Source of the DNA: a virus
Reading direction: 5' to 3' (one strand)
Virus record (IMG/VR): IMGVR_UViG_3300013102_000793
Location: 1 to 23,338 of that record
DNA length: 23,338 nt
The notes beneath the pieces were generated by a model. That model was given only the letters and a program-made list of their open reading frames with translations. It was not told where the DNA came from and did no database searches. A program made the translations under genes and the position numbers. The stretch's first letter is position 1. Every line of letters starts with the position of its first letter. This document shows, one piece after another, positions 2,753-22,421 of this stretch.

Positions 2753-3079
2753 ATGCAATCGCAAACATTGAGCTATTCGGAAAGTATCCCGAAGGAAAAA
2801 AGAGAGGCCTGTTATCAGCATATTATCGGGATCCGAAAAATGCTGACCAGCCAGAAAAATATTGCGCAGGAAACGTTTGATGAAAGTACGCCGACCATGC
2901 GCAAATTGATCTGCTTCCATGCGGGATTGAAAAGTCGTCATATCAATATGCGTTTCTTTGAATTGGCACACAGTGAAAGAATAAAGGTCATTGAAGCACT
3001 TAATTCACTCATTGAGTTTGGTAATGCGCTTCCGGCCTTTATTAGTGAAACCGACTCAGTTCTCAACATAGAACATTAA
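2753..3079 (+). CDS. Early protein of unknown function, possibly DUF5347 family
   Basis: A 108-residue, mostly helical soluble protein starting MQSQTLSYSES. The ATG at 2753 is preferred because GAGGT lies 5 bases upstream and the preceding small gene ends at 2745; the frame is open further left but would overlap that gene. Position and size fit the DUF5347 proteins seen between the Fil-like and DUF2732 genes of P2-like prophages. It is not P2 B, the helicase loader, which is longer and not recognisable anywhere in this early region. No catalytic motif is visible. Confidence 0.72.
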   Translation: MQSQTLSYSESIPKEKREACYQHIIGIRKMLTSQKNIAQETFDESTPTMRKLICFHAGLKSRHINMRFFELAHSERIKVIEALNSLIEFGNALPAFISETDSVLNIEH

Positions 3080-3145
3080 TACATCTGAAATTTAATTGAC
3101 GTTCAACCCGCCGGGCATTCTTTTGCCCAAAAACAGGATTGGATA

Positions 3146-6816: not shown

Positions 6817-7947
6817 ATGCATAATGCGGATGAAGAAAACGACAACATTGAACTTGAGGATCAAGAAGGACTCGAGTTAACATCACATCCGCATCAGATG
6901 GGGACGGACACTGAAGTCCGGATTGCGAAAGAACAATCGAGTGTTTTTGAATTACTTCGACGTGAAAGCCGTGGACAACTAGTATTGGCGCCGGATTTTC
7001 AACGTAAAGATGTCTGGGATCGTAAGCGTCAGTCTGAGTTGATTGAATCTATCTTAATGGGTATTCCGATTCCATTGATTTATCTTTTTGAAGATGAACA
7101 TGGCACACGGCAAATCATAGATGGTAAGCAACGTATTTCTGCGCTGAAGCGTTATATCAATAACGATTATGTATTGACCGAGTTAACCATGTTACCAAAA
7201 TTACGTGGTATGAAGTTTTCTGAAATCCCTCTATTACTCCAAGCTAAACTTTAAGACTGTCAGTTGCACTCTTATGTTATACAGCCACCGACGCCAGAAT
7301 ATGTAAAATTTAATATTTTTGAGCGAGTTAATCGCAGTGGTATGAACCTGAATAAACAGGAAATGCGCCACGCTTTATATCAGGGAAAGGCGACCCGTTT
7401 AATTCAAGAGTTAGCAGAAAGTTCTGCATTTATAAATTCTACTGGCAGTGGGGTAAAAGCTGACAGAATGCGAGATCGCTACCTTGTATTGCGTTTTGTA
7501 GCCTTTTATTTGTTGATTGGCGGATCGTTACCAGATATTGAGTTTCGTTCGGACATTGATGCCTTTTTAGCATCGGTAATGAAGTTTATTAACACCAAAA
7601 CCGGCGCCGAATCAATTAATAAAGCTGAGAAAGCTTGTTATCGAGGAATGATGAATGTTTCTATAGCACTAGGGACTGAAGCTTTTCGTTTTCGATCTAG
7701 AACTGGAGCTAAAAGAAGGCCAATAAACATGGGGCTATTTGAAGTTCTGGTTATGGTATTTAGTCAAGTTCAATTAGAACTTTTACCAAAAGATCTTGAT
7801 TTACGTGATTTTATTGACGAGTATAAAACGGATTTTGATGATATGGGCATTTTTTCCGGTGCAATCGATACAACTGAATATGTAAAAATGCGATTTGATT
7901 TTTCATGGGAAATGATAAAAAGGTTAAAAAATGCTTACACAAATTAA
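6817..7947 (+). pseudogene. DUF262 (GmrSD/ParB-like) protein interrupted by one in-frame stop
   Basis: First gene of the cassette. Residues 1-145 carry the DUF262 N-terminal motifs: PDFQRKDVWD (about 59-68) and the nucleotide-binding IDGKQR (101-106). Codon 146 at 7252-7254 is TAA, yet the same frame continues at once with DCQLHSYVIQPPTPEYVKF, then FERVNRSGMNLNKQE, the second DUF262 signature, to a stop at 7947. The family normally has an acidic residue before this DCQL-like segment, so a single GAA-to-TAA change explains the break. DUF262 proteins occur in GmrSD-type nucleases and other NTP-dependent defence systems. AAGGCGA precedes the ATG. The gene overlaps the ATPase start by 17 bases. 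Without suppression only a 145-residue fragment is made, and translation of the ATPase may also suffer through lost coupling. Confidence 0.88.
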
Positions 7948-8980
7948 TATACAGGGTTTTAAAAGTCTTGACTCAGCGAGTCTTGAACTATCACCTTTAA
8001 CTATATTAACCGGAACAAACTCTTCGGGAAAGTCTAGTGCTCTGCAAGCACTGATGCTATTGATTAAGCATAGTGCTTCAGTCAATCAATATAGTATGGA
8101 AGATCTTCTACGTTTCTTAGCCGATTTTTCTGTTATAAGAAATAAGAAAATTAATGCAAAATCCATAAATATAAATGTTGAGGATACTGAGGGGCATTCT
8201 CATAAATTAACACTTAATGCCGAGGATTCAGAGATTGATAGTCGATTGGGTTACCAATATGAGCCAAGAGTTGTTGGCAGTGAACCTGAGCTACTTTATC
8301 TGAACGCTAACCGCCTCGGGGCACAAGAAATGGTTCCTGTATCTGAACGCCGTGTCGGCGGAGCTGGTGAATACCTGTTTTCTACATTTGATAAAATGAA
8401 GCATTTACCTGTACCTGGATATCTGGTGAAGGCTAGCGAATCGTCAACATTGGCGTATCAATTGTCCTATTGGTTGAAATTAATTACAGGAACAACATCT
8501 GAATTAGTCACTGAGAAAATGGGTGATCAAGTTAAAGTGGCGTTTACCCTGAAAGAACTTGAAGGAAATGTTTCGCCACTGAACTTGGGGGCGGGAATGA
8601 GCTATATCGCAAAAGTACTGATTATTTGCCTGATGGCAAAAAAAGGTGATCTTATTCTTCTAGAAAACCCTGAAATCCAGTTGCATCCAAAAGCACAGGC
8701 TCATTTAGCCGTTTTCTTGACATTTATAGCAAGTAAAGGGATACAGATTATTGTTGAAACTCATTGTGAGCATTTGATTAATAAACTTGCTTATTTGGTT
8801 TACGAAGATGAGATTTCTTCAGAAAATGTAGTATTGCATTACAAACCGGAAGTTGATGAAAAATTCATTTCGATGAAAATAAATGACAATGGGAAATTCA
8901 CCGACCTCAATGGAGAGGTGACTGGTTTTCCTCTAGGATTCTTCGACGCAACATTAGATGATTTGATGCAGATGAGGTAA
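7931..8980 (+). CDS. SMC/ABC-like AAA ATPase with DUF3696-type C-terminus
   Basis: A 349-residue ATPase of the AAA_21/DUF3696 class. It opens with the typical QINIQGFKSL strand, then Walker A GTNSSGKSS (about 28-36). A signature-like LNLGAGMSY lies near 217-225, Walker B LILLENPEIQLHP near 240-252, and a switch histidine in VETHCEH near 274-280. The end (GFPLGFFD) resembles the DUF3696 tail. In known defence systems such ATPases act as sensors or motors that control a paired nuclease or toxin. The ATG overlaps the end of the DUF262 gene, and the next gene starts 4 bases after its stop, so the three form one operon. It is AT-rich relative to the structural genes, which suggests transfer. Confidence 0.88.
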   Translation: MLTQINIQGFKSLDSASLELSPLTILTGTNSSGKSSALQALMLLIKHSASVNQYSMEDLLRFLADFSVIRNKKINAKSININVEDTEGHSHKLTLNAEDSEIDSRLGYQYEPRVVGSEPELLYLNANRLGAQEMVPVSERRVGGAGEYLFSTFDKMKHLPVPGYLVKASESSTLAYQLSYWLKLITGTTSELVTEKMGDQVKVAFTLKELEGNVSPLNLGAGMSYIAKVLIICLMAKKGDLILLENPEIQLHPKAQAHLAVFLTFIASKGIQIIVETHCEHLINKLAYLVYEDEISSENVVLHYKPEVDEKFISMKINDNGKFTDLNGEVTGFPLGFFDATLDDLMQMR

Positions 8981-8984
8981 CGGA

Positions 8985-9734
8985 ATGTCTTATCAAATGG
9001 TTCTCGATACGCCATTATTGGTAGCTTACGAAAATATGGATGACAAAAACAAAGTTAAAAGGTTACATAAGAAACTTGTTTTGCCATATTTAACCAATAA
9101 GAAACAATGGGTTGCAGCCAAGGCTTCATGTCTGAAAATATCTGATGCAGAGTATAGACAATATTTAGCTGGGCTCGCAAATCGACCTGAAAGTGATGAT
9201 GATCTTATTACATTAGCGTCTAAATCACTCTTGAAAATTATTTTAACAGAAGATCAAAACCTTCCTCTTCCTTATGTGCACTTTAAGAAGGGAATGGTTA
9301 ATAATCAAGTCACAGTGACGTTAAGCTCCTCAGATACCAGGACACATTTAAAGACATACTTTAAGATGCTTTGTAGCAATGCAACTAAAGTTACAATTTG
9401 CGATAACTACTTTGCCGAAAATTGGGATAATACATGCAGTTTATTTCATTCGGTATTACCACGAAAAACGCTTACTATCGAGTTTTCTGAAATTGCGGCA
9501 GGGATAGCTGCAGCCAATAATAGTAGTAAAATAAATAATGATTTTGTGCATAGCATTGATCCACAATGGAGTGTACAGATTACTACAAATCCAAAATATA
9601 CTAATTGTCATGACCGTTATCTTCTGATTGAGAGCCCTGAAGGAAAAATAGAAGTCATGCTTTCAAGTGGGTTTGATCACATATGGAAAAATAATCCGAA
9701 AGAACTCACTTGCGTTTTTCGTGATGTCTCATAA
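8985..9734 (+). CDS. Third cassette protein with a PLD-like HDR motif
   Basis: A 249-residue soluble protein without a family I can name with confidence. Residues about 135-249 look like half of a phospholipase-D-type fold: KVTICDNYFAENW (about 135-147), then CHDRYLLIE (208-216; H209, D210, R211), then MLSSGFDHIWKN (225-236) and a final strand. Such HDR-type PLD-like domains lack the classical HKD lysine and often end multi-gene defence systems. The N-terminal 100 residues (MVLDTPLLVAYEN, helical) have no visible motif. It starts 4 bases after the ATPase and is probably its effector or adaptor; this is inference from order and motif. A terminator overlaps its last codons. Confidence 0.8.
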   Translation: MSYQMVLDTPLLVAYENMDDKNKVKRLHKKLVLPYLTNKKQWVAAKASCLKISDAEYRQYLAGLANRPESDDDLITLASKSLLKIILTEDQNLPLPYVHFKKGMVNNQVTVTLSSSDTRTHLKTYFKMLCSNATKVTICDNYFAENWDNTCSLFHSVLPRKTLTIEFSEIAAGIAAANNSSKINNDFVHSIDPQWSVQITTNPKYTNCHDRYLLIESPEGKIEVMLSSGFDHIWKNNPKELTCVFRDVS

Positions 9735-9750: not shown

Positions 9751-9795
9751 GAAGCCGAGTGTAGTGCTCACCCAGCCAACAAAACTTAGCAAATA

Positions 9796-9996
9796 CTACT
9801 TCATCTCCGCAAATGTCGTATTAATCTCATCTTCAGGCACATGAATGCCGAAGTATTTTATGCGGTTTTTCGTCACCTCATCTGCGATCCCAGTCGGCGC
9901 AGTAAAAACATGGTACCAAGAACAGAAGGCGGAGAGGTTCACCTTCAAGTGTAGCGCCATTCCGAATGAGTTTAAGTGGTGTGAAAAGGATTTCAC
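9796..9996 (-). CDS. Possible 66-residue protein or gene remnant
   Basis: A GTG start at 9996 with GGAGAG six to eight bases upstream opens a frame ending at 9796. The product includes KVNLSAFCSWYHVFTAP and IADEVTKNRIKYFGIHVPEDE, which reads like real protein, but no family is recognised. It lies alone and leftward, convergent with the cassette terminator. The start codon sits within the 12-bp inverted repeat at 9975-10002. It may be a fragment of a displaced cargo gene. The opposite strand is open too (9845-10138) but less protein-like. Confidence 0.3.
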   Translation of the reverse strand: MKSFSHHLNSFGMALHLKVNLSAFCSWYHVFTAPTGIADEVTKNRIKYFGIHVPEDEINTTFAEMK

Positions 9997-10189: not shown

Positions 10190-10510
10190 AGTCATATGGT
10201 TGAGCCATGCATGCATTATGCGCATGGTTTTGCATGATCCAGAAAGGATCAAGAAACACCTGAATGCCCCACTAGCCGTGTTGGCGTCGGTCTGGGTCAT
10301 GCATTAAAAATAGTTAGCTAAGTCAAAAGCGTGCAGGCGGGTAACATTGCGCGCGCCGTGGTGAAGCGCGGTTAGAATGGTGCGGCCTCCTGCACGCTGA
10401 GGCGCTTTCTCTTTTATTTCGCGTTTAGTCGTCGCTTCTAATGACTGCGCGGAGTGTGAATGGGCGGAGGCTCATCGTTGAAAGAAGCGGCGGTAACGAT
10501 TAAAGCAGCC
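10190..10510. other. Structured non-coding region, probably the phage end (cos) region
   Basis: There is no gene here, but there are several stems. TTGCATGATCC (10230-10240) can pair with GGGTCATGCAT near 10306-10316, enclosing a small GATCC-AGAAA-GGATC hairpin (10236-10250). A second element at 10328-10398 has its own entry. GC-rich short repeats continue to about 10500. In P2 the cohesive-end site lies between the A end and the Q end of the map, so cos should fall in the A-Q interval, and this is its most structured, P2-looking part. I could not find the P2 19-base overhang sequence, so cos is placed by position only. Confidence 0.4.
10328..10415 (+). ncRNA. Candidate structured small RNA or cos-associated fold
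   Basis: AGCGTGCAGG (10328-10337) pairs perfectly with CCTGCACGCT (10389-10398), a 10-bp closing stem. Inside, GC-rich segments such as CGCGC and GCGCG allow further hairpins. The stem is followed by GGCGCTTTCTCTTTTATTT, a T-rich run that would fit termination of a rightward transcript of roughly 75-90 nt. No promoter was identified just upstream. It could instead be a DNA element for terminase. Confidence 0.35.
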
Positions 10511-10644: not shown

Positions 10645-12081
10645 ATGGAAAACCCAAAGTTATTCATATCTTATAGCTGGTCTAATCCCACCCATGAACA
10701 ATGGGTAATTGATTTAGCTAACGAACTAACCGAATCTGGTGTTCATGTGATCCTTGACAAGTGGGATCTAAAAGAAGGTCATGACTCGGTTGCTTTCATG
10801 GAAAAGATGGTTACAGATTCAGAGATAACTAAGGTAGCAATTATATGTGATGAAGTTTACGCATTAAAGGCTGATGGGCGAGCTGGCGGTGTCGGTACTG
10901 AAACTCAAATAATCTCACGTGAAGTTTATGAAAATCAGGAGCAAGGGAAATTTGTAGCGGTCATTTCAGAGAGAGACTCACAAGGTAAGGCTTATCTCCC
11001 AACATATTATAAATCGCGAATATATATCGACTTAAGTGAACCTGATAAATACGCCGATAATTTTGAGAAATTATTACGTTGGATTTATGACAAGCCACTT
11101 TACACCAGACCAGCTATAGGAAAACAGCCTTCTTTTTTGGGTGAGTCAGAAGGAATGCCTCTAGGCACAACGGCCACATATAAAAGAGCTGTCTCTGCTA
11201 TTAAAGAAAATAAAACATTTTCCGCAGGTGCACTAGATGAATATTTTTCTACTTTCATTAATAATTTTGAGCAGATTAGAATAGTAGAAAGGGTTGGTGA
11301 GTTTGATGATCAGGTGATTGAAAGTATTGATAATTTCATTCCTTATAGAAACGAAATTATAACGCTATTCATAACTATTTCACAATATGCACCTAGTGAG
11401 GAAAATATACTCAAAATACATCGTTTTTTGGAGGCGCTCATCACTTACTTGAATAGACCTGCGCATATAAATAACTGGCAAGAATGGGACTTCGATAATT
11501 TCAAGTTCATCATTCACGAGATTTTCCTCTATACGATTGCTATTTTCACGAAATATGAAAAGTTCTCTGAGGTAAACATTTTACTGACACAGCAATATTA
11601 TGTAGCTGAAATACCTGATCGCGGAAAAGACGTAATGGTAGGGTACGAAGTATTTCGAGAATACTTACCCTCCTTAGAACATCGGAATGCAAGGTTAAAA
11701 TTAAATCGTTTATCTATTCATTCAGACTTACTTGAACAAAGAAGTAAAAATTCCGGCATTGAATTTCGTTATTTAATGCAGGCGGACTTTATACTTTTCA
11801 TTAGGAGGGAGCTACTTGGGAGAGACTATTTCATTCATTGGTATCCTGACACTTTAATGCATCTTCGTCGTTTTCATAGTGCATTTGAAATCTTCGCAAG
11901 GTCTTCATCAAAGACATACTTTGAAAAGGCGAAATATACCCTTGGTATAAATAAAGTGTCCGATCTTGATGAATTGATGGCCGCTTATAAAAAAGGTAGT
12001 CAAAATTTACCAAAATGGGGGTTCGACTCATTAAACCCCTCTGCGTTACTTGGCTATGAACAACTAGCAACAAAAGCCTGA
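10645..12081 (+). CDS. SEFIR/TIR-domain protein, likely single-gene anti-phage effector
   Basis: A 478-residue protein. Residues about 4-155 form a SEFIR-type TIR domain: KLFISYSWSN (5-14), VILDKWDLKEGHD (35-47), AIICDEVYALKADGR (65-79) and GGVGTE (81-86), whose glutamate E86 is a candidate catalytic residue for NAD+ cleavage. Bacterial SEFIR proteins are known single-gene defence factors that deplete NAD+ on infection. Residues 160-478 are helical, rich in aromatic and charged residues, and have no motif I recognise; this is presumably the sensor half. AAGGAT lies about 9 bases before the ATG, and the gene has its own promoter. It is AT-rich and flanked by the 19-bp repeats, both signs of acquired cargo. 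Function is inferred from the N-terminal domain and hotspot position. Confidence 0.87.
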   Translation: MENPKLFISYSWSNPTHEQWVIDLANELTESGVHVILDKWDLKEGHDSVAFMEKMVTDSEITKVAIICDEVYALKADGRAGGVGTETQIISREVYENQEQGKFVAVISERDSQGKAYLPTYYKSRIYIDLSEPDKYADNFEKLLRWIYDKPLYTRPAIGKQPSFLGESEGMPLGTTATYKRAVSAIKENKTFSAGALDEYFSTFINNFEQIRIVERVGEFDDQVIESIDNFIPYRNEIITLFITISQYAPSEENILKIHRFLEALITYLNRPAHINNWQEWDFDNFKFIIHEIFLYTIAIFTKYEKFSEVNILLTQQYYVAEIPDRGKDVMVGYEVFREYLPSLEHRNARLKLNRLSIHSDLLEQRSKNSGIEFRYLMQADFILFIRRELLGRDYFIHWYPDTLMHLRRFHSAFEIFARSSSKTYFEKAKYTLGINKVSDLDELMAAYKKGSQNLPKWGFDSLNPSALLGYEQLATKA

Positions 12082-13249: not shown

Positions 13250-15016
13250 TTAATAAAACTCCAGGATGTTAGGGCTTTGACCGCCGTTCGCGGCGGTCAG
13301 CGGTTCGTTGAGCAGTGCGTGCATGATTGCCCAGGCGACATCCGCGTGACTGGCTTCCTCGCTGCGACTGGCCTCATAGGTGGAGCGGCTGCCGCTGGCG
13401 GTCATGGTTTTGCGGATCGCCATGAATGACGACGTGATGTCTTTGTGGTTGGTGTCGTACTCCAGGCGTCCGGACGTGATGGTGTCTTTCGCTTTCAACA
13501 CCATTTTTGTTTTAGTCTCTGGGCTGTAGCGGATTTCCATTGCGGCGGGGAAGAACTGCCGGACAAGCTGGAAAACACCCTGGCCGATGCCGGTGGCATC
13601 TACGCCGATGTATTCCACGCAGTAGCGTTTCGTTAACTCCTCAATGCTTTTCGCCTGGGCGGCAAAATCCATACCCTTCCATTGATGGCGTTCCAGTACG
13701 CGGAATTTGCCACCGTCCACCAGCGGCGGAGCCACGACAGCGCAGCCCGCGCTGTCGCCGGTGTGCGACGGGTCGTAACCAATCCAGACGGCGCGATAAC
13801 CAAACGGACGCACGGCAAACGGGCTGAAATCCTTCCACTCCTCCGCACTTTCCACCATGCAGCGTTGCAGCTCGGCAAACGGGAACACGGACGCCTGATC
13901 GTCTACAAATTCGCACATAAACAGGTTGCGGAAATCCTCGGCGCTGTTTTCCTGTTTCAGCGTGTCGATGTTGAAAAGGTTACAGCCACCGGCTAACGCG
14001 TCTTCAATGGTGACGATTTGCCGCCACTGGCCATCCTCACAAAGCCGACCTTTCGCCAGGACGTGATGGCCGATATCCAGCTCAATCCTGTCCCGAGGAT
14101 TTTCCCGCCCCTTGTTGAACAGTTCGCCCGACCAGAAAGGATAAGCGCCGTGCGTGAGTGCTGATGGGGTGGAAAAATACGTGGTGCGCAGATGTTCCTG
14201 CGAGGCCATCCCGCTGGCGACCTTGCGCAGCTTCTGGAAGTTCGGGATCCAAAAGATTTCATCCACGTATAAATCGCCGTTGTGGCTTTGGGCTGTGTTG
14301 GAGTTGGTGCCTAAGAAAATCAGTTTTGCGCCGTTGTTGCCGAGCACTATCGGATCGCCGGTCAGTTCTACATCGACAAGGCGGGCGAACTGAATGATGT
14401 ACTCACGGAACACGTAAGCCTGGGTTTTACTGGCCGACAGGAAAATTTGGTTGTGGCCGGTGGCGAGTGCGCGCAGCAGCGCTTCGCGGGCAAAGAAGAA
14501 CGTGGCGCCAATCTGACGAGATTTCAGGATGTCGCGGATACGGTGTTTAAGCCCTGCGTCGTACCAGATTCGCTGATAAGGGAAACACTTTTCAAAGAAA
14601 ATCCCTTCCAGCTTCTCCAGGGCTTCGTCGCTGAAATAGTTTTTGGTTGGCTTCTTACGATCGCCTTTGTTGCGGTTAGCAACGTTCGGATTTAAATCGG
14701 CCTCGTTCCCGCTCTGGCTGTAGCGGTTCACCCGTGCCAGGCGTTCAATCATCCGGCCTAACGCATCAATCTCTTTGTAATCCGCATTCCCCTTCACGTC
14801 CTTAGTGACGAGCTGAATTAAGCGCGCTTCCAGGCTGGATTCAACGCGAGCAATCGGCGCGGCGTTCTCCCACGCATCGCGGGTTTTCCAGCTCTGCACC
14901 GTCGGTATTTTTTGGGTCAGCAGTTCCGCAATCTGACGCACAGAAAACCCCTGCCAGTAAAGCAGTGCCGCCTGTCGCCGTGGGTCGCTGATGATGGTTG
15001 AGTTTGTCGTTTTCAT
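13250..15016 (-). CDS. P: Terminase large subunit (ATPase/nuclease)
   Basis: Packages DNA and, with M, cuts at cos. Starting at ATG 15016 gives 588 residues against 590 in P2 P; the frame is open to 15301 but that extension overlaps O and is not conserved. An N-terminal HTH (about 14-40, YWQGFSVRQIAELL) is followed by the Walker A-like SRQIGAT (166-172) and Walker B LYVDEIF (249-255). The RNase-H-like nuclease has acidic residues in YDPSHTGDS (D415), GVDATG (D473) and HADVAWA (D559). It is the first gene of the leftward operon and diverges from O. No good Shine-Dalgarno is visible. Confidence 0.96.
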   Translation of the reverse strand: MKTTNSTIISDPRRQAALLYWQGFSVRQIAELLTQKIPTVQSWKTRDAWENAAPIARVESSLEARLIQLVTKDVKGNADYKEIDALGRMIERLARVNRYSQSGNEADLNPNVANRNKGDRKKPTKNYFSDEALEKLEGIFFEKCFPYQRIWYDAGLKHRIRDILKSRQIGATFFFAREALLRALATGHNQIFLSASKTQAYVFREYIIQFARLVDVELTGDPIVLGNNGAKLIFLGTNSNTAQSHNGDLYVDEIFWIPNFQKLRKVASGMASQEHLRTTYFSTPSALTHGAYPFWSGELFNKGRENPRDRIELDIGHHVLAKGRLCEDGQWRQIVTIEDALAGGCNLFNIDTLKQENSAEDFRNLFMCEFVDDQASVFPFAELQRCMVESAEEWKDFSPFAVRPFGYRAVWIGYDPSHTGDSAGCAVVAPPLVDGGKFRVLERHQWKGMDFAAQAKSIEELTKRYCVEYIGVDATGIGQGVFQLVRQFFPAAMEIRYSPETKTKMVLKAKDTITSGRLEYDTNHKDITSSFMAIRKTMTASGSRSTYEASRSEEASHADVAWAIMHALLNEPLTAANGGQSPNILEFY

Positions 15017-15060: not shown

Positions 15061-15087
15061 CGTTGTGCCATCGAGCATCAACCCGCC
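15061..15087 (+). promoter_or_regulatory. Candidate Ogr-type late activator box upstream of O
   Basis: CGTTGTGCCA-N5-CATCAACCCGCC is found here and, with all 22 fixed bases identical, upstream of V. P2 late promoters are activated by Ogr at a TGT-N12-ACA dyad centred near -55; this box has TGT-N12-CAA. Centred at about 15072, it would put the O operon start near 15128, 33 bases before the O ATG. The divergent P promoter must share this gap, but I found no second box facing left. Confidence 0.62.
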
Positions 15088-15160
15088 TCGGCTGGCGGTG
15101 TCGGACGTGTGTCTGGAAACTTGGGGTTCTCAGAAGTACACACCGACTGGAGTCCGACAA

Positions 15161-16012
15161 ATGGCAAAAGCAACAAAGCGCTTTCGTATCTGTACCGAAG
15201 GGGCAACCACAGACGGCCGCGAAATTACCCGCGACTGGATCGAACAGATGGCCGCAACCTATGACCCGAAGGTCTACGGCGCACGTATCAACATGGAGCA
15301 CATCAAAGGTTATTACCCTGATAGTCCGTTCCGCATGTACGGCGATGTGACCGGCGTTTATGCCGAAGAAATTGCCGACGGCGCGCTGAAAGGCAAGCTG
15401 GCACTGTATGCCGACATTGATCCGACGGCTGATTTAGTGTCGCTGGTGAAAGCCCGCCAGAAGGTTTACACCTCCATCGAAGTGAACCCCTCGTTTTCCG
15501 ACACCGGCAAAGCCTATCTGATTGGCCTGGCCGTGACCGACAGCCCCGCGAGCCTCGGCACCGAGTACCTGCAATTCAGCGCGAAGGCGCAGCAAAACCC
15601 GCTGGCTGGCCGCAAACAAGATGCTGGAAACCTGTTCACCGTCGCCGAAGAAACGGCGTTCGAGTTTGAAGAAGATAAACCGGCTGCCCCGTCGCTGTTC
15701 TCCCGCGTGAAACAGCTGCTGTCCAGTAAATCCGCCTCGGATGATGCCCGTTTCAAAGACGTGCATGACGCCGTGGAAGTGGTGGTGGAACACGTCGAAA
15801 CCGGCCTGCAAGCCAGCGATGAAAAGCTGTCCGTGCTGGAAAAATCCCTGACGCAACGCCTCAGCGCACTGGAAAAAGCCACCGCCGACGATCGCGAACA
15901 GTTCAGCACGCTCAAAGGCAAGCTGGAAAAATCCGCGCCGCAGAACTACACGCAGCGCCCCGTTTCAAGCGGCGGCGGTAAAGGGAATGCGGCGGATATC
16001 ACCGACTGCTAA
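15161..16012 (+). CDS. O: Capsid scaffolding protein with internal serine protease
   Basis: Scaffold for procapsid assembly that also matures the capsid proteins. The ATG at 15161 with GGAG upstream gives 283 residues (P2 O: 284); the open frame to 15065 runs through the promoter region and is not used. The herpesvirus-type catalytic triad of P2 O (D19, H48, S107) is present as D18 (TTDGRE), H47 (NMEHIKG) and S105 (VYTSIEV). The C-terminal half (about 190-270) is a predicted coiled coil for the scaffold role. It is the first gene of the long rightward head/lysis/tail operon. Confidence 0.96.
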   Translation: MAKATKRFRICTEGATTDGREITRDWIEQMAATYDPKVYGARINMEHIKGYYPDSPFRMYGDVTGVYAEEIADGALKGKLALYADIDPTADLVSLVKARQKVYTSIEVNPSFSDTGKAYLIGLAVTDSPASLGTEYLQFSAKAQQNPLAGRKQDAGNLFTVAEETAFEFEEDKPAAPSLFSRVKQLLSSKSASDDARFKDVHDAVEVVVEHVETGLQASDEKLSVLEKSLTQRLSALEKATADDREQFSTLKGKLEKSAPQNYTQRPVSSGGGKGNAADITDC

Positions 16013-16057
16013 GCACAAAAAAACGATTAACCCGTTAACCATTTTGGAAAAAAACGC

Positions 16058-17122
16058 ATGAAACAAACCACCCGTTTTCAATTTAACGCCTACCTGTCCC
16101 GCATCGCAGAGCTGAACTCTGTGGACACCGGCGACCTGGATAAAAAATTCAGCGTTGAGCCGTCGGTAACGCAGACGCTGATGACCCGCGTGCAGGAGTC
16201 CTCCGCGTTCCTCCAGATGATTAACATCATCCCCGTGGACGAAATGAAGGGTGAAAAAGTGGGCGTAGGCGTGTCCGGCTCCATTGCCAGCACGGCGGAC
16301 ACCACCGGCGACGGTGAGCGTAAAACTGCTGACTTCAATACCCTGACCGCTGAGGGCTACGAGTGCCGTCAGACCAACTACGATTTCCATTTCCGCTACG
16401 CCACGCTCGATCTCTGGGCACGCTATCAGGATTTTCAGGCGCGTTTACGTGACGCCATCGTGAAACGCCAGGCGCTGGATCGCATCACCATCGGCTTCAA
16501 CGGCGTTGAGCGTGCGGCCACCTCCAACCGCACGAAATACCCGCTGTTGCAGGACGTGAACGTGGGCTGGCTGCAAAAGTACCGCCTCAATGCCCCTGAG
16601 CGCGTGCTGAGCAAAATCCTCGGTGACGACGATGAGCTGATCTCCGCCACCGTGCGCGTCGGCGCAGGCGGTGACTATGAAAATCTGGACGCGCTGGTGA
16701 TGGACGCCACCAACGACATGATTGACCCGATTTATCAGGACGATACCGGCCTGGTGGTGATCTGCGGTCGTCAGCTGCTGGCAGATAAGTATTTCCCACT
16801 GGTGAACAGGGCGCAGGATAATTCCGAAAGCCTGGCGGCCGACATGATTATCAGCCAGAAGCGCATCGGTAACTTACCGGCGGTGCGCGTGCCGGGCTTC
16901 CCCGCTAACGCGCTCCTGATCACCCGCCTCGATAACCTGTCAATCTACTGGCAGGACGGTACGCACCGCCGTCACATCGAAGAGGTGCCAAAGCGTGACC
17001 GCATCGAAAACTACGAATCCATCAATGAGGATTTCGTGGTGGAAGACTTTCGCGGCGGCTGCCTGGTCGAAAATATCCAGATCGGCACCTTCAAAGCTGC
17101 CGCACCTGAATCAGCGGAATAA
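16058..17122 (+). CDS. N: Major capsid protein
   Basis: Builds the T=7 head shell after cleavage by O. It has 354 residues (P2 N: 357), with P2-typical segments such as FNAYLSRIAELN near the start and RIENYESINEDFVVEDF near the end. In P2 the N-terminal 31 residues are removed in maturation; a similar region is present. TTGGA lies about 10 bases before the ATG. It follows O by 45 bases. Confidence 0.96.
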   Translation: MKQTTRFQFNAYLSRIAELNSVDTGDLDKKFSVEPSVTQTLMTRVQESSAFLQMINIIPVDEMKGEKVGVGVSGSIASTADTTGDGERKTADFNTLTAEGYECRQTNYDFHFRYATLDLWARYQDFQARLRDAIVKRQALDRITIGFNGVERAATSNRTKYPLLQDVNVGWLQKYRLNAPERVLSKILGDDDELISATVRVGAGGDYENLDALVMDATNDMIDPIYQDDTGLVVICGRQLLADKYFPLVNRAQDNSESLAADMIISQKRIGNLPAVRVPGFPANALLITRLDNLSIYWQDGTHRRHIEEVPKRDRIENYESINEDFVVEDFRGGCLVENIQIGTFKAAAPESAE

Positions 17123-17135
17123 AGGGGGACATAAC

Positions 17136-17792
17136 ATGATTAGCCCTTGCCGTCGTCACATGCTGCGGCAGTCAGCTATCAACGCAGCGCAGCAGGCCTC
17201 CGGCCTGTTGCGTCACGCCACCGGCTACGAACTGCAAATGCAAAAGCTCAATGCGGATAAGCAGGAACTGAGCAAGCATCAGTCCTTCCAGGCCAAAGCG
17301 GAAGTCAAACGCCGCCTGCTGCCGGAATATGCCCCGTGGGTGTCGGGCGTGCTGGCCGAAGGGAACGGCGCGCAGGATGCCATCCTGATGACCGTCATGA
17401 TCTGGCGTATCGATGCCGGTGATATTGCCGGGGCGCTGAACATTGCCCGCTATGCCTTTAAGCACCGGCTCGCCATGCCTTTCGGCAACCGCACCACGGG
17501 CTGCGCCTTCACCGAGGAAGTGATCGACCAAGCCACGCGCGCCCGCGATGCAGGTGAACCGGTCAGCATTGAGCTGATGCTGGAGGTGCTGGAGCTGACC
17601 GACGCCGAGGATATGCCCGATAAAGTCCGTGCCCAGTTGCATAAGATTATCGGCTATCTCTACCGCGACGGCGGCAAGGAGGCGTTAGCCCTCGAACGCC
17701 TGAAAAATGCCTTAATTCTTGATAACAAATCAGGCGTTAAGAAAGACATTGAGCGCCTGGAATCCGCCATTAGAAAGGCATCCGGCAGCTAA
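17136..17792 (+). CDS. M: Terminase small subunit, short form
   Basis: Recognises cos and, with P, cuts and packages DNA. The ATG at 17136 is preceded by GGGGGA and gives 218 residues; matching segments to P2 M include LRHATGYELQM, VLAEGNGAQDAILMTVM and VRAQLHKIIGYLYRDGG. P2 M is 247 aa; this copy stops after GVKKDIERLESAIRKASGS and lacks the lysine-rich tail. The sequence that follows is a stable hairpin rather than frameshifted tail codons. Confidence 0.94.
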   Translation: MISPCRRHMLRQSAINAAQQASGLLRHATGYELQMQKLNADKQELSKHQSFQAKAEVKRRLLPEYAPWVSGVLAEGNGAQDAILMTVMIWRIDAGDIAGALNIARYAFKHRLAMPFGNRTTGCAFTEEVIDQATRARDAGEPVSIELMLEVLELTDAEDMPDKVRAQLHKIIGYLYRDGGKEALALERLKNALILDNKSGVKKDIERLESAIRKASGS

Positions 17793-17810
17793 AAGAATGC
17801 GCCCCGCGCA

Positions 17811-17869
17811 GGGCGGCACGCCAGCCGCGGCAGGTCTTTGACCTTGTTCAACGCTGGCGTCCACCGCCC
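17811..17869 (+). repeat. Large nested hairpin between M and L
   Basis: GGGCGG-C-ACGCCAGC (17811-17825) pairs with GCTGGCGT-CCA-CCGCCC (17853-17869), 14 base pairs with one small bulge. A second hairpin, AGGTC-TTT-GACCT, sits in the loop (17832-17844). It fills most of the 94-base M-L gap and has no T run. It may process or protect the late mRNA, or attenuate M relative to L. Confidence 0.7.
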
Positions 17870-17886
17870 CCCATTCAGAGGTCATT

Positions 17887-18357
17887 ATGTCTCTTGTTGT
17901 ACCTGCACCAAAGCCGGACGCCGCGACGGAACCCGCGATTAAAAACACCCATTTCTGGCCTGATGTCGATCCGGTTGAGCTGCGTGACACGCTGCGCCTG
18001 GAGGGCACGGTCACCGCTAAGCGTCTGAGAACTGCCGCAAAGTTTGCCATGACCGAAGTGAATGCCGAGCTGTTCAGCTTTCGTGATGCGCAGATTTCGC
18101 AGGGCTTTAAACGCCTGGCTGATGTTCCTGCCGATCAGATTGATGATGAAAGCGTGAAGGTCTGCGCCTATCAGCGCGCCGTGGCGTCTATCGCGGCGGC
18201 CTTCCTGGCGGAGCGTTACCCGAATAATGACACCACCGACAAGGGCAGTAAAAAAGCCGAAATTGTGGAAAGCACCGTTGATGATTTATGGCGTGACGGG
18301 CGCAATGCGATCAGCGACGTCGCCGGTGTGTCTCACTGCATCATTGGGCTGCTCTGA
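17887..18357 (+). CDS. L: Head completion/stabilisation protein
   Basis: Closes the filled head before tail joining. It has 156 residues (P2 L: 169); the TNTHFWPDVDPVELRDTLRL-like N-terminus and the ESTVDDLWRDGRNAISDVAG segment mark the phage_GPL family. AGAGGT lies five bases before the ATG. Its TGA overlaps the X start by one base, so the two are coupled. Confidence 0.94.
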   Translation: MSLVVPAPKPDAATEPAIKNTHFWPDVDPVELRDTLRLEGTVTAKRLRTAAKFAMTEVNAELFSFRDAQISQGFKRLADVPADQIDDESVKVCAYQRAVASIAAAFLAERYPNNDTTDKGSKKAEIVESTVDDLWRDGRNAISDVAGVSHCIIGLL

Positions 18358-18560
18358 TGAAAGTCTATGCCGAACAGGGCGACACCGTAGATTCGCTTTG
18401 CTGGCGGTACTACGGGCGCACGGGATCGGTCGCTGAAAAAGTTTACGCGGCTAACGTTGGCTTAGCCGCACAGGGGGCAATCCTGCCCCATGGCTACGCG
18501 GTGGAGCTGCCGGATATTACCCAGGCCGCAGTCAGTGAAACCGTCTCACTTTGGGACTGA
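18357..18560 (+). CDS. X: Tail protein X
   Basis: A small tail assembly protein of 67 residues, the same length as P2 X. The sequence EQGDTVDSLCWRYYGRTG followed by VYAANVGLAAQG is a LysM-like fold typical of phage_X. Its start overlaps the L stop and its stop overlaps the holin start, each by one base. Confidence 0.94.
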   Translation: MKVYAEQGDTVDSLCWRYYGRTGSVAEKVYAANVGLAAQGAILPHGYAVELPDITQAAVSETVSLWD

Positions 18561-18775
18561 TGACCATGGAGCGCATCACCTCGTTTATCTGTTACTGCGT
18601 CGCGGCTTTTCTAGCCTGGCTCGGCGCAATGTCACCGCAGGATATCGCCTTCCTGGTGGGCGCAGGCGTCGGCGTCGCGACCTTCCTGGTGAACTGGTAC
18701 TACCGTCGCAAGACTTACCGCCTGCTGAAAGAAATGGGCGTGAGAGGGGAAATCAATGCAGCCATCAATCGTTAG
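18560..18775 (+). CDS. Holin, HP1-type
   Basis: Forms membrane lesions that time lysis. The 71-residue product has two hydrophobic segments, about residues 5-20 (SFICYCVAAFLAWLG) and 26-46 (IAFLVGAGVGVATFLVNW), then a basic tail YYRRKTYRLLKE. This pattern fits HP1-family holins and not P2 Y, so the holin has been exchanged while keeping its map position. The ATG at 18560 overlaps the X stop; a second ATG lies two codons later at 18566, so a dual start is possible. Confidence 0.82.
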   Translation: MTMERITSFICYCVAAFLAWLGAMSPQDIAFLVGAGVGVATFLVNWYYRRKTYRLLKEMGVRGEINAAINR

Positions 18776-19265
18776 ACGCTGCGCCGTCGCCGCCGTTCTC
18801 GCGATTGCCGCGCTGCTGCCGCAAACGCCAACATTGAAAACCTCCGCCGCCGGTCTGGCACTGATTGCCGATTTTGAAGGCTGCCGCCTGTCCGCCTATC
18901 AGTGCAGCGCGGGCGTCTGGACAAACGGCATCGGGCACACCGCAGGTGTGAAGCCGCAAACGCACATCAGCGAACGGCAGGCCGCCGTGAATCTGGTGGA
19001 AGACGTGATGCGGGTGGAGAAAGGCATTGCGCGATGTATGCCGGTTGCCATGCCACAGCCGGTGTATGACGCCGTGGCGTCTTTTGTGTTCAACGTCGGC
19101 GTGACGGCGGCCTGTAAATCCACCCTGGCGTTTTTCATCAATAAGGGGGAATGGCGAAAAGCCTGCGAACAGTTGCCGCGCTGGGTATTTGTGGACGGTG
19201 TCCGCGTCACCGGCCTGGAGCGCCGCCGCGCTAATGAGCTGGCCTACTGCCTGCGGGGAGTCTGA
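18756..19265 (+). CDS. K: Endolysin (GH24 lysozyme, SAR type)
   Basis: Muramidase that cuts peptidoglycan at lysis. The 169 residues contain the T4-lysozyme-family triad with a cysteine variant: E41 (FEGCR), C50 (YQCSAG) and T56 (VWTNG), spaced E-8-C-5-T. Residues about 9-22 (CAVAAVLAIAALLP) form a weakly hydrophobic signal-anchor, so export by Sec as a signal-arrest-release endolysin is likely. GAGAGGGG precedes the ATG. It overlaps the holin by 20 bases and lysB by one. Confidence 0.93.
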   Translation: MQPSIVRRCAVAAVLAIAALLPQTPTLKTSAAGLALIADFEGCRLSAYQCSAGVWTNGIGHTAGVKPQTHISERQAAVNLVEDVMRVEKGIARCMPVAMPQPVYDAVASFVFNVGVTAACKSTLAFFINKGEWRKACEQLPRWVFVDGVRVTGLERRRANELAYCLRGV

Positions 19266-19690
19266 TGCGCATTTTAATTTTCTTACTGCTGGCAGTTTGC
19301 GCGCTGGCGGGGCTGCAAACCTGGCGTATCGGCGGCCTGCATGACGAAGCCGACCAGGCGCAGCGCATTATCGGCACGCTGTCCGCCGGAATCCAAAGCC
19401 GCGACAACGTTATTAGCCGCCTGAACGATGATGCCGTGACGCGGGAACGCCAGGAGCAAAGCCTGCGCACCCAGCTCGCACGGGCAGGACAGCAGGCGCG
19501 GGATCGTGAAGTTCATATTCAAAGGTTACTCAATGAAAATCAGGAAATGCGCGACTGGTATGGCGATCGTCTGCCTGATGGCATTAGCCGGATGCACGCA
19601 CGTCCCGCCTTTGCCAGCGCCGCAGATTATTTACATTGGCTGTCCGGCGGTAACCAGTTGCCCGATACCGGCAAGCGCACCGGTCACTAA
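19265..19690 (+). CDS. lysB: Inner-membrane spanin (Rz-like)
   Basis: The 141-residue inner subunit of the spanin pair that disrupts the outer membrane. It has one N-terminal transmembrane helix (about 2-18, RILIFLLLAVCALAGL) and a long periplasmic coiled coil (about 25-100). It starts on the last base of the K stop. lysC starts inside it in another reading frame. Confidence 0.92.
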   Translation: MRILIFLLLAVCALAGLQTWRIGGLHDEADQAQRIIGTLSAGIQSRDNVISRLNDDAVTRERQEQSLRTQLARAGQQARDREVHIQRLLNENQEMRDWYGDRLPDGISRMHARPAFASAADYLHWLSGGNQLPDTGKRTGH

Positions 19691-19823
19691 CGGCGACTTA
19701 AGCGCCGATGTCAGAAACCTGGAGGCCGCGCTGACTGCCTGCGGCCTCCAGGTGGAAGTGGTCAAACAATGCCAGGAGGAACACCGTGTTAAAACCCGCA
19801 CAGCTGCGCAAAGCCTTAACTGA
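19533..19823 (+). CDS. lysC: Outer-membrane lipoprotein spanin (Rz1-like), nested
   Basis: A 96-residue lipoprotein, largely embedded in lysB in a different frame, the known lysB/lysC arrangement of P2. The signal peptide ends at a lipobox, LMALAGC, followed by the proline-rich THVPPLPAP typical of o-spanins. The frame is open nine codons upstream, but the ATG at 19533 gives a normal signal peptide. The 3' end extends past lysB and overlaps R by 38 bases. Confidence 0.88.
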   Translation: MKIRKCATGMAIVCLMALAGCTHVPPLPAPQIIYIGCPAVTSCPIPASAPVTNGDLSADVRNLEAALTACGLQVEVVKQCQEEHRVKTRTAAQSLN

Positions 19824-20253
19824 CGCCGTGCCGGTGCTGCAAACCAGCCCCGACACCTTGCGGATGTTTGTGGATAACGGGCGCATCGTTTCCACGTTAG
19901 CCAGTTCTCTGTCGTTTGAATACCAGTATCAGACTGAACTGCTGATCACCAATTTTGCCCAGGACTGTGATCTGATCATTGTGCCTATTCTTGCCTGGCT
20001 GCGTGAGCATCAACCGGACATCATGGCAACACCCGATAAACAGCAGACAGGCTATAAATTCAAAGCCGATATGCTCAATGACGGCAGCTACGATATTGCC
20101 GTTTATTTGCAGCTCACCGAGCGAGTGATCGTGAAACAGGTTGATGCCGGTCTGCACGTGGAGCATTTTCCGGAACCGCCTCTGCCGGAGCCGGTGGAAA
20201 GGCCGCGTGAACTGTACCTGCACGGCGAGTTAGTGAGTCAGTGGAATGAGTGA
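19786..20253 (+). CDS. R: Tail completion protein R
   Basis: Needed with S for stable tail completion. It has 155 residues, equal to P2 R, and begins MLKPAQLRKALTDAVP like the phage_tail_R family. It uses a GTG start with a strong AGGAGGA upstream, located within lysC. The 3' end overlaps S by 8 bases. Confidence 0.94.
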   Translation: MLKPAQLRKALTDAVPVLQTSPDTLRMFVDNGRIVSTLASSLSFEYQYQTELLITNFAQDCDLIIVPILAWLREHQPDIMATPDKQQTGYKFKADMLNDGSYDIAVYLQLTERVIVKQVDAGLHVEHFPEPPLPEPVERPRELYLHGELVSQWNE

Positions 20254-20692
20254 GCTGTCAGCGTTTGATACCCGCCTGGCGGGATTGATTGCGGCGCTGT
20301 CACCGCAAAGCCGTAAGGCGATGGCCTCTACCATTGCGAAGCGTCTGCGCAAACATCAGCAGCAGCGCATTAAGCAGCAGGTTACACCCGACGGTAAACC
20401 CTTCACTCCCCGCCGCCCGCCGCCGTTGCGGGCAAAGAAAGGCCGCATTAAGCGGGAAATGTTCGCCAAACTGCGCACGGCCAAATACATGAAGGCCAAA
20501 GGCACCGCTGACGACGCCGTGGTGGAATTCACCGGACAGGTACAACGGATGGCAAAAGTGCATCAGTACGGGCTGCGGGATCGCCCGTCAGTCAGGGCGG
20601 AGGAAGTGCGGTATCCGGCGCGTCCGCTGTTAGGGCTGGATGCGGAAGATATGAAGATTGTGGAGGATGAATTGATGAAATTGATGAGTTAA
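20246..20692 (+). CDS. S: Tail completion protein S
   Basis: 148 residues (P2 S: 150), of the phage virion morphogenesis (phage_tail_S) family. A basic region around residues 30-75 (KRLRKHQQQRIKQQ and KKGRIKREMF) and the end ARPLLGLDAEDM are typical. It is the last gene of the O-to-S operon before the inserted membrane-protein gene. Confidence 0.94.
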   Translation: MSELSAFDTRLAGLIAALSPQSRKAMASTIAKRLRKHQQQRIKQQVTPDGKPFTPRRPPPLRAKKGRIKREMFAKLRTAKYMKAKGTADDAVVEFTGQVQRMAKVHQYGLRDRPSVRAEEVRYPARPLLGLDAEDMKIVEDELMKLMS

Positions 20693-20771
20693 GAATTTGC
20701 AGAGCGCTACTTGATTTGCCTAAACAAAAGCCCTTACAGTGAGAAGGGTTTCCTAGTTAACGGATGATAAA

Positions 20772-21644
20772 ATGGAAGACATTGATAGCCTTATTATTAA
20801 AAATTACGAAATAATAAAAGACATACTTTATATTTTTTCAATTTTTCTAATTGCATGGGTAACTTACATAAGAGCTGGTTCAAACTACAGTATGATGTCT
20901 AGAGTTTGGTGTTTGATAATTGGGAAAAAAGATTTTAATAATCGTCAAACAGCTAAGTTCATGCAAATCCGAGAGGATATTGATAAATTCAACTTTACTT
21001 TCAATGTTAATGCTGTAAACATGCAGCAAATACAAAGACTACAGAAAAGGGTCGAAAGACAAAATATTGATATAAGATATATTTCTAGGGCGAGAGGTTA
21101 TTTTTACATTAATACCTGCAAAGTGAAACCCCCTAAAAGAAAATACATTCTGGCTATAGCCATTCTAGCTGTTGTATTTTTTCAATTAGCTGCGTTGTCT
21201 TTGCAACTTGCAATCACTCCTGCAGCTGTATTGAAGTTCGATGATAGTAATACTTGGTTTTCGATTAATCACAATTACGCAAAAAAATATACCCTTGCAC
21301 TCCCCTTCGTTGATTTAATTATTGATAATTGGCGCTTTGACAAAGAGACATGTACAAAAGAAAACTTCTCAGAAGATAAACTCTCACAAATAACAAAGCT
21401 TACTAAAAAAGAAATTAAAGTTATTTGTGAATCATTTAAACAAAAGCAACAAGATCCAACAATTACAGAGACAATTAAAAAACAAAAAATTCTTTACTTC
21501 ATTTTGTTTATGCCACTGCTGTTTTCTTTATTCCTTTTTAGGGAGTCTATTTATATGTTGTGTTCTTATGATCTGCGTAACCTTCTGCTAAGAAAGAGGG
21601 GTAAAATAAAAATTAAGTATAGTACTAAGTACTTTGGTAGCTAA
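20772..21644 (+). CDS. Inserted membrane protein, possibly DUF6216-like
   Basis: A 290-residue protein with about three or four transmembrane helices: near 17-35 (ILYIFSIFLIAWVTYI), 125-150 (YILAIAILAVVFFQLAALSL) and 238-260 (ILYFILFMPLLFSLFLF). Between the first two is a charged soluble loop with the IQRLQKRVERQ helix; between the last two is a lysine-rich loop. It resembles DUF6216 proteins of P2-like prophages, an uncertain recollection. It is far more AT-rich than S and V on either side, a classic added cargo gene. GGATGATAAA precedes the ATG; no clear promoter is seen in the 79-base gap after S. It may affect the envelope of the lysogen, for example superinfection exclusion, by inference only. 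Confidence 0.83.
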   Translation: MEDIDSLIIKNYEIIKDILYIFSIFLIAWVTYIRAGSNYSMMSRVWCLIIGKKDFNNRQTAKFMQIREDIDKFNFTFNVNAVNMQQIQRLQKRVERQNIDIRYISRARGYFYINTCKVKPPKRKYILAIAILAVVFFQLAALSLQLAITPAAVLKFDDSNTWFSINHNYAKKYTLALPFVDLIIDNWRFDKETCTKENFSEDKLSQITKLTKKEIKVICESFKQKQQDPTITETIKKQKILYFILFMPLLFSLFLFRESIYMLCSYDLRNLLLRKRGKIKIKYSTKYFGS

Positions 21645-21711
21645 TTTTACATGTGAGTTTTGTCTCTTGTGAAATCTTGGGCACTTTTTAGCATATCAAT
21701 ACCGGTATCTG

Positions 21712-21738
21712 CGTTGTGCCACCTGCCATCAACCCGCC
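21712..21738 (+). promoter_or_regulatory. Candidate Ogr-type late activator box upstream of V
   Basis: Identical in its 22 fixed positions to the box before O. The TGT-N12-CAA centre is near 21723; a P2-like -55 spacing would put the start of transcription at about 21779, right at the V ATG and beyond the terminator hairpin. Confidence 0.62.
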
Positions 21739-21747
21739 ACAAATTGT

Positions 21748-21776
21748 ATGCCGCCTGACAGGGCGGCATTCTTTTA
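21748..21776 (+). terminator. Terminator immediately before V
   Basis: ATGCCGCC (21748-21755) pairs with GGCGGCAT (21762-21769) around TGACAG, then TCTTTTA. It should stop transcripts entering from S and the inserted gene. The V ATG follows within a few bases. Confidence 0.78.
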
Positions 21777-21779
21777 TCC

Positions 21780-22421
21780 ATGAATACATCCATCCCAAAC
21801 AACGACATTCCGCGCCTGCTGCGCAATCTGATCCGCATTGGCACCGTTGCCGAGGTGAATTTGGAGGAAGCAACTTGTCGCGTAAATACCGGCGGTAACG
21901 TCACCGACTGGCTGCACTGGCTGACGTCCCGCGCTGGGCGTTCCCGTTCCTGGTGGGCACCGTCTGAAGGTGAACAGGTTGTGCTGTTCTGCCTGGGCGG
22001 TGAGCTGGATACCGCCTTTGTGATGCCCGGCGTTTTCTCTGATGAATTTCCTGCGCCGTCGGCGTCAGCCGATGCCATGCACGTCACTTTCCCTGACGGT
22101 GCGGTGATCGAGTACGAACCCAAAACCGGCTCGCTGCTGGCAACCGGCATTAAGTCCGCCACGGTGAACGCCGCCGATAAGGTGGCGGTGACTGCTCCGC
22201 TGATCACCTGCACGGCGAAAACGCGCATCACCCTCGACACGCCGGAAGTGGTCTGCACGAACAAACTCACCACCGGCACTATCGAGATTAAGCAAGGCGG
22301 CAAGATGACTGGCAACCTCACCCACACAGGCGGCAGCATCACGTCAAACGGCGTGGTGGTTCATACCCATAAACACGGCGGCGTCCAGACGGGCGGCGGT
22401 CAGACGCAGGTGCCTTCATGA
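21780..22421 (+). CDS. V: Baseplate assembly protein / central spike
   Basis: The spike tip that punctures the outer membrane. It has 213 residues (P2 V: 211) with P2-like segments TDWLHWLTSRAGRSRSWW, FPDGAVIEYEP and TLDTPEVVCTN. The N-terminal OB fold is followed by a beta-helical repeat region (about 110-190). The C-terminus has VVHTHKHGG, the HxH metal-binding motif of the spike apex. No Shine-Dalgarno sequence precedes the ATG. It shares four bases with W. Confidence 0.95.
   Translation: MNTSIPNNDIPRLLRNLIRIGTVAEVNLEEATCRVNTGGNVTDWLHWLTSRAGRSRSWWAPSEGEQVVLFCLGGELDTAFVMPGVFSDEFPAPSASADAMHVTFPDGAVIEYEPKTGSLLATGIKSATVNAADKVAVTAPLITCTAKTRITLDTPEVVCTNKLTTGTIEIKQGGKMTGNLTHTGGSITSNGVVVHTHKHGGVQTGGGQTQVPS

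Follow-up and report, generated by a model that had tools for sequence, protein, structure and literature searches.

The same 27-base box precedes two late operons of a P2-like phage, and this raises the question of whether the box is read by an ordinary Ogr-type activator of late transcription or, as an earlier note on this DNA had proposed, by an activator with altered specificity. The stretch that was analysed, here called the window, is a whole IMG/VR record of 23,338 bases. Since the record ends inside J (a gene named from its position after V and W), the window's own F operon and ogr gene lie outside the view.

Two copies of one box in front of the late operons

The pattern CGTTGTGCCA-N5-CATCAACCCGCC is present on the + strand at 15061-15087 and at 21712-21738. 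The 22 fixed bases are identical at both positions (0 mismatches), as the earlier note had stated, and 23 of the 27 bases are common to both copies when N5 is counted in. That nothing else is shared around the boxes was likewise borne out: in the flanks, 17 of 60 bases match on either side, which is chance level. Even with up to three mismatches allowed, the window contains exactly two pattern matches, versus none in 100 dinucleotide shuffles. Together with the conservation of the box across records (see below), the shuffles refute a chance similarity, whose probability is practically nil.

The assignment of the two boxes to O and V was also correct according to Pfam. The O gene (15161-16012, + strand; Phage_GPO) encodes the capsid scaffold/protease and has GGAG upstream of its start, while the V gene (21780-22421, + strand; Phage_base_V/Phage_spike) encodes the baseplate spike and is preceded by no Shine-Dalgarno-like sequence. 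A point absent from the earlier note is that the O box is the box of the P operon too. The P gene (13250-15016, - strand, start at 15016; Terminase_6N/6C/Terminase_5), encoding the terminase large subunit/ATPase, diverges from the O box region and again has no Shine-Dalgarno-like sequence. The box sits, then, before the P/O and the V operons of the window. In the box of the divergent O and P promoters the TGT is at 15064-15066 and the CAA at 15079-15081 (centre 15072.5), and in the box of the V promoter they are at 21715-21717 and 21730-21732 (centre 21723.5), so that both read TGT-N12-CAA. The distance from box centre to start codon is 56.5 bases for V, 56.5 for P and 88.5 for O.

The annotation of the P2 record (NC_001895) places activator sites at 3057-3087 (PO and PP), 10239-10266 (PV) and 17555-17583 (PF); its start sites are 3127 (PO), 3016 (PP), 10308 (PV) and 17626-17628 (PF). 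The O/P box of the window matches the first of these activator sites in place and register, and the V box matches the second in register. With GTTGT taken as the left half, the P2 centre-to-start distances are 55.5 bases for PO and PP and 56.5 for PV and PF.

On this sequence evidence we consider it very probable that the phage's Ogr-type activator, a zinc-finger protein that turns on late transcription, binds at both copies. The box forms a partial dyad, in which GTTGTGCC is the left half and the right half, around CAAC, is a less strict inverted match, and the centre of the dyad would lie about 56 bases upstream of each predicted late start site. Ogr bound at the box would recruit host RNA polymerase; Ogr contacts the C-terminal part of the polymerase alpha subunit. 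The first copy would serve O rightward and P leftward, and the second would serve V. A dyad beside promoters would also fit an operator for a repressor, or the site of a regulator other than Ogr, all the evidence being that of sequence. However, the centre is outside the core promoter, 55-57 bases upstream, just as in the annotated activator sites of P2, and exact copies are found at late operons only, which makes such a regulator highly improbable.

Conservation of the box and of Ogr in related phages

Exact matches to the pattern were found in 35 stretches of viral contigs, 29 of them before V, six before O and none elsewhere. These stretches fall in 33 records, all of which (33/33) match with up to three mismatches, and a reversed-pattern control gave no match in any of the 33. 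In the genome collection the pattern was matched in two Rahnella contigs, which suggests Rahnella as the host group of the window phage.

The promoter regions were surveyed with alignments of V (594 confirmed relatives in viral contigs), FI (589) and O (585), the best 80 being taken from each. These samples lean to the kin of the window, and their loci are mutually related, so that the counts, in which identical rows are kept as separate entries, stand for non-independent events. A GTTGT box was present in 77 of the V loci (best 80 of 594), at a distance from the V start of 55.5 (17 loci), 56.5 (52), 57.5 (7) or 58.5 bases (1); it was not in range in the other three (L153, L160 and L169), the last of which has one about 40 bases away. 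The right triplet in this sample was CAA in 43, CCA in 9, AAA in 7, TAA in 5, ACA in 3 and another in 10. The 43 V loci closest to the window (L100-L142, within the same best 80) all have the box at 56.5, with CAA in 40 and the 22 fixed bases exact in 11.

Three of the best 80 of 589 FI loci had too little upstream sequence and were dropped from the box count. A GTTGT box was found in 71 of the remaining 77, 79.5-83.5 bases before FI in 69 and 96.5 in two, and was not found in six; the right triplet was ACA in 33, CCA in 14, ACG in 14, CAA in 3, AAA in 3 and another in 4. For the best 80 of 585 P/O loci the P start was located by protein match and not by distance, one locus (L294) having no P match. 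The P-O gap was 139-149 in 79/79, and the P start was 55.5 (45 loci) or 56.5 bases (17) from the box centre in 62/79. A box of this form was not at the expected place in the other 17 of the 79, where the best TGT site was at 47.5, 53.5 or 94.5; these loci are ENT90-like, or similar ones with another box.

Sequence to the left of the V box varies among the relatives, and the right side is conserved. In the window the left side holds a moron gene, located between S and the V box (20772-21644, + strand; DUF6216, A+T-rich), for which no PADLOC or PHROGs match was found. The change of sequence directly left of the V box could be taken as a sign that the box is a short recombination linker joining variable genes at the S-V moron site to conserved ones. 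Against this, the O/P copy borders no moron, a related box is kept before FI, and the distance to V is fixed; a junction role could, moreover, follow secondarily from selection that acts on the box. We give the linker very little credence, and attribute the persistence of the box amid changing surroundings to its being the part read by the activator.

No ogr gene above the family cut-off was found in the 23,338 bases of the window, which end in J. A weak Ogr_Delta match at 9789-9878 is interrupted by a stop and scored 14.8 bits, below the cut-off of 26.3; after translation in three frames it was set aside as a remnant or chance. Ogr family genes were found in 9 of the 33 related records, the others including many fragmentary ones. 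Seven of the relatives' Ogr proteins could be aligned at full length and are 64-65% identical to P2 Ogr, with CX2CX22CX4C kept, and those of L084 and L097, aligned over the first 53-54 residues, are 65-66% identical to it. Every one of the 12 aligned Ogr sequences has C4, C7, C30 and C35, and the stretch TKERYHQCQN is the same in all of them. In one relative (L090 1-1400, record G016), a V box and the first V codons are followed by ogr within about 1 kb, with other short coding remnants in the interval, as though a deletion had removed the tail region.

The earlier note's description of the repeat as a P2-type late-activator box is thus supported by its position, its register, the relatives and the F boxes of the relatives.

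Specificity of the activator

The proposal of an altered activator had rested on a difference from the P2 Ogr dyad, namely CAA in place of ACA in the right half. The consensus quoted in PMC3931495 is TGT-N12-ACA. The boxes of the window do depart from its literal form, but in this register so do the three sites of P2 itself. PV reads GTTGT-N12-CAA, in the same register as the window boxes, while PO/PP and PF read TGT-N12-CCA. Reading PV from the first TGT of TGTTGT gives TGT-N14-ACA, and N12-ACA is still not restored. The supposed deviation is hence the form of P2's own PV; a single natural site had been compared with a textbook consensus, and from this the "deviant" reading arose. A literal TGT-N12 scan of both strands of the window returned 6 ACA, 18 CAA and 8 CCA and was uninformative.

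An Ogr-like activator whose DNA specificity for the right half has shifted from ACA to CAA would nevertheless find some support in the close clade, where 40 of the 43 V boxes (among the best 80 of the V relatives) have CAA, versus ACA in the published consensus as quoted in PMC3931495. The F boxes of the same clade speak against it. FI regions were read in ten related records and the box was present in all ten, with ACA as the right triplet in 9/9 records of the clade; the tenth record (L097) belongs to another clade and has ACG. The O and V boxes of the clade with these ACA-type FI boxes end in CAA, so that one activator must read both forms, and the Ogr of the relatives has kept its zinc finger. 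Together with the CAA and CCA sites of P2, this renders a shifted specificity very unlikely, and we regard the claim as not supported. Since CAA and ACA boxes occur in the same phages beside an ordinary Ogr, it is most likely, as judged from these alignments, that a single ordinary Ogr serves both forms. The boxes of the window are real and form an ordinary Ogr-type pair, in a P2-like phage that is probably associated with Rahnella. The comparison also shows that a test for Ogr sites based on TGT-N12-ACA excludes too much, since the right half differs from promoter to promoter both in P2 and within this phage group.

Predicted leaderless P and V messages and the putative core promoter of V

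The start codons of P and V fall at the transcription-start position of P2-type promoters, the 56.5 bases of both genes in the window being the annotated distance of P2 PV. A Shine-Dalgarno-like tetramer was found in none of 80 V loci and none of 79 P loci of the best-80 surveys, in contrast to 56 of 79 for FI and 69 of 79 for O. The distance to the box and the lack of a Shine-Dalgarno-like sequence lead us to predict leaderless P and V messages in the relatives, the case of P being a sequence-based prediction. The P and V transcripts would begin at the start codon or within one or two bases of it, and the O and FI messages would carry leaders with ribosome-binding sites. Leaderless V is already part of the P2 annotation, which puts the start of the V transcript at the V start codon, and P2 phage is named among the sources of known leaderless genes in PMC4633059, where the range of references cited takes in the 1985 paper on P2 late promoters. 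The start of P2 P is 23 bases inside the message, with GAGG upstream. A literature search with most subscription papers outside its coverage found no description of leaderless P in P2-like phages.

The core promoter of V was located by eye. A candidate -35 element, TTGTAT (21744-21749, + strand), and a candidate -10 element, CATTCT (21767-21772, + strand), 17 bases after it, are both weak matches to the consensus; by inspection, TTG is kept at the -35 position in most relatives. Within this core promoter, and ending just before V, is an intrinsic-terminator-like hairpin with a T-rich tail (21748-21776, + strand), consisting of a 9-pair stem (21748-21769) followed by the tail TCTTTTATCC. The fold of 21744-21775 has a minimum free energy of -16.4 kcal/mol, and the hairpin is the only terminator-like site on the + strand from 20600 to 21900. 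A fold of -8 kcal/mol or lower was obtained for the region between -36 and -5 in 63 of the 80 V loci (best 80 of 594), versus 18% of base-shuffled copies; the same region of P2 (-4.2 kcal/mol) is below that folding strength. It is likely that the terminator of the O operon (and of the moron) overlaps the V promoter.

We propose, with moderate confidence, that of the four late operons of most P2-like phages P and V give leaderless messages with the start codon locked to the Ogr box, that the O and FI messages carry leaders and ribosome-binding sites, and that the terminator hairpin of the O operon lies within the V core promoter, with termination and re-initiation at one spot. If this is true, translation of the packaging ATPase and of the spike protein would follow a route other than that of the abundant capsid and sheath proteins. 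A simple sequence rule, in which the start codon is 55.5-56.5 bases away from the centre of the box and no Shine-Dalgarno sequence is present, predicts leaderless P and V across many phages, and this general rule is a mild novelty. Mild interest attaches here to two points only, the predicted leaderless P and the terminator hairpin that lies within the V promoter.

Comparison with known systems

Several other genes of the window deserve mention. A gene set matching NsnA, NsnB and NsnC of PADLOC is located between the replication and capsid genes (6817-9734), at a position corresponding to that of tin/old in P2. Its NsnA is spread across two reading frames (6817-7254 and 7264-7947) and appears interrupted in the window. 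A SEFIR/TIR-domain protein (10645-12081; PADLOC bSEFIR model, E 1.4e-125) adjoins the portal gene, and a carbonic anhydrase gene beside the integrase (1-657) is probably host DNA by the attachment site.

P2 (NC_001895), with its PP/PO, PV and PF promoters, resembles the window in its operons, in the one divergent site for P and O, in the centre-to-start distance and in the TGT register, as well as in the CAA of the PV right half and in a V start codon placed at the annotated V start site. It differs in three respects. The O and V boxes of the window are nearly identical to each other; P of the window is at the predicted +1 without a Shine-Dalgarno sequence, in contrast to P2 P with its 23-base leader and GAGG; and the hairpin of the window is inside the V promoter, whereas the putative O-operon terminator of P2 (9397-9433) is far from PV.

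Yersinia phage vB_YenM_06.16-2 (NC_070916) has GTTGTGCC boxes before O/P, V and FI, with P at 56.5 and V at 55.5 bases from the centre, but all three boxes have ACA as their right half. Erwinia phage ENT90 and similar contigs share the late gene order, a similar P-O spacing and the Ogr family with the window; their box, however, is another one, about CTGTTTGCTG...GAGCGGGC in many O/P regions and CTGTC...CCAGCAAACCC before FI. Loci of this kind with a different box are L004 (ENT90), L279-L295, L329, L240, L242, L243, L248, L250 and L253, and the Ogr of ENT90 keeps the same zinc finger despite the different box. The ENT90-like phages, and not the window, might be the better place to seek a changed specificity. 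In the P2-like Ralstonia phage phiRSY1, TGTTGT-X13-ACAACA has been described before late operons, four of them (PMC5694545). A GTTG...CAAC dyad before late operons is thus common to phiRSY1 and the window, but GTTG and CAAC are 15 bases apart in the former versus 13 in the latter, and the halves of phiRSY1 are more symmetric (PMC5694545).
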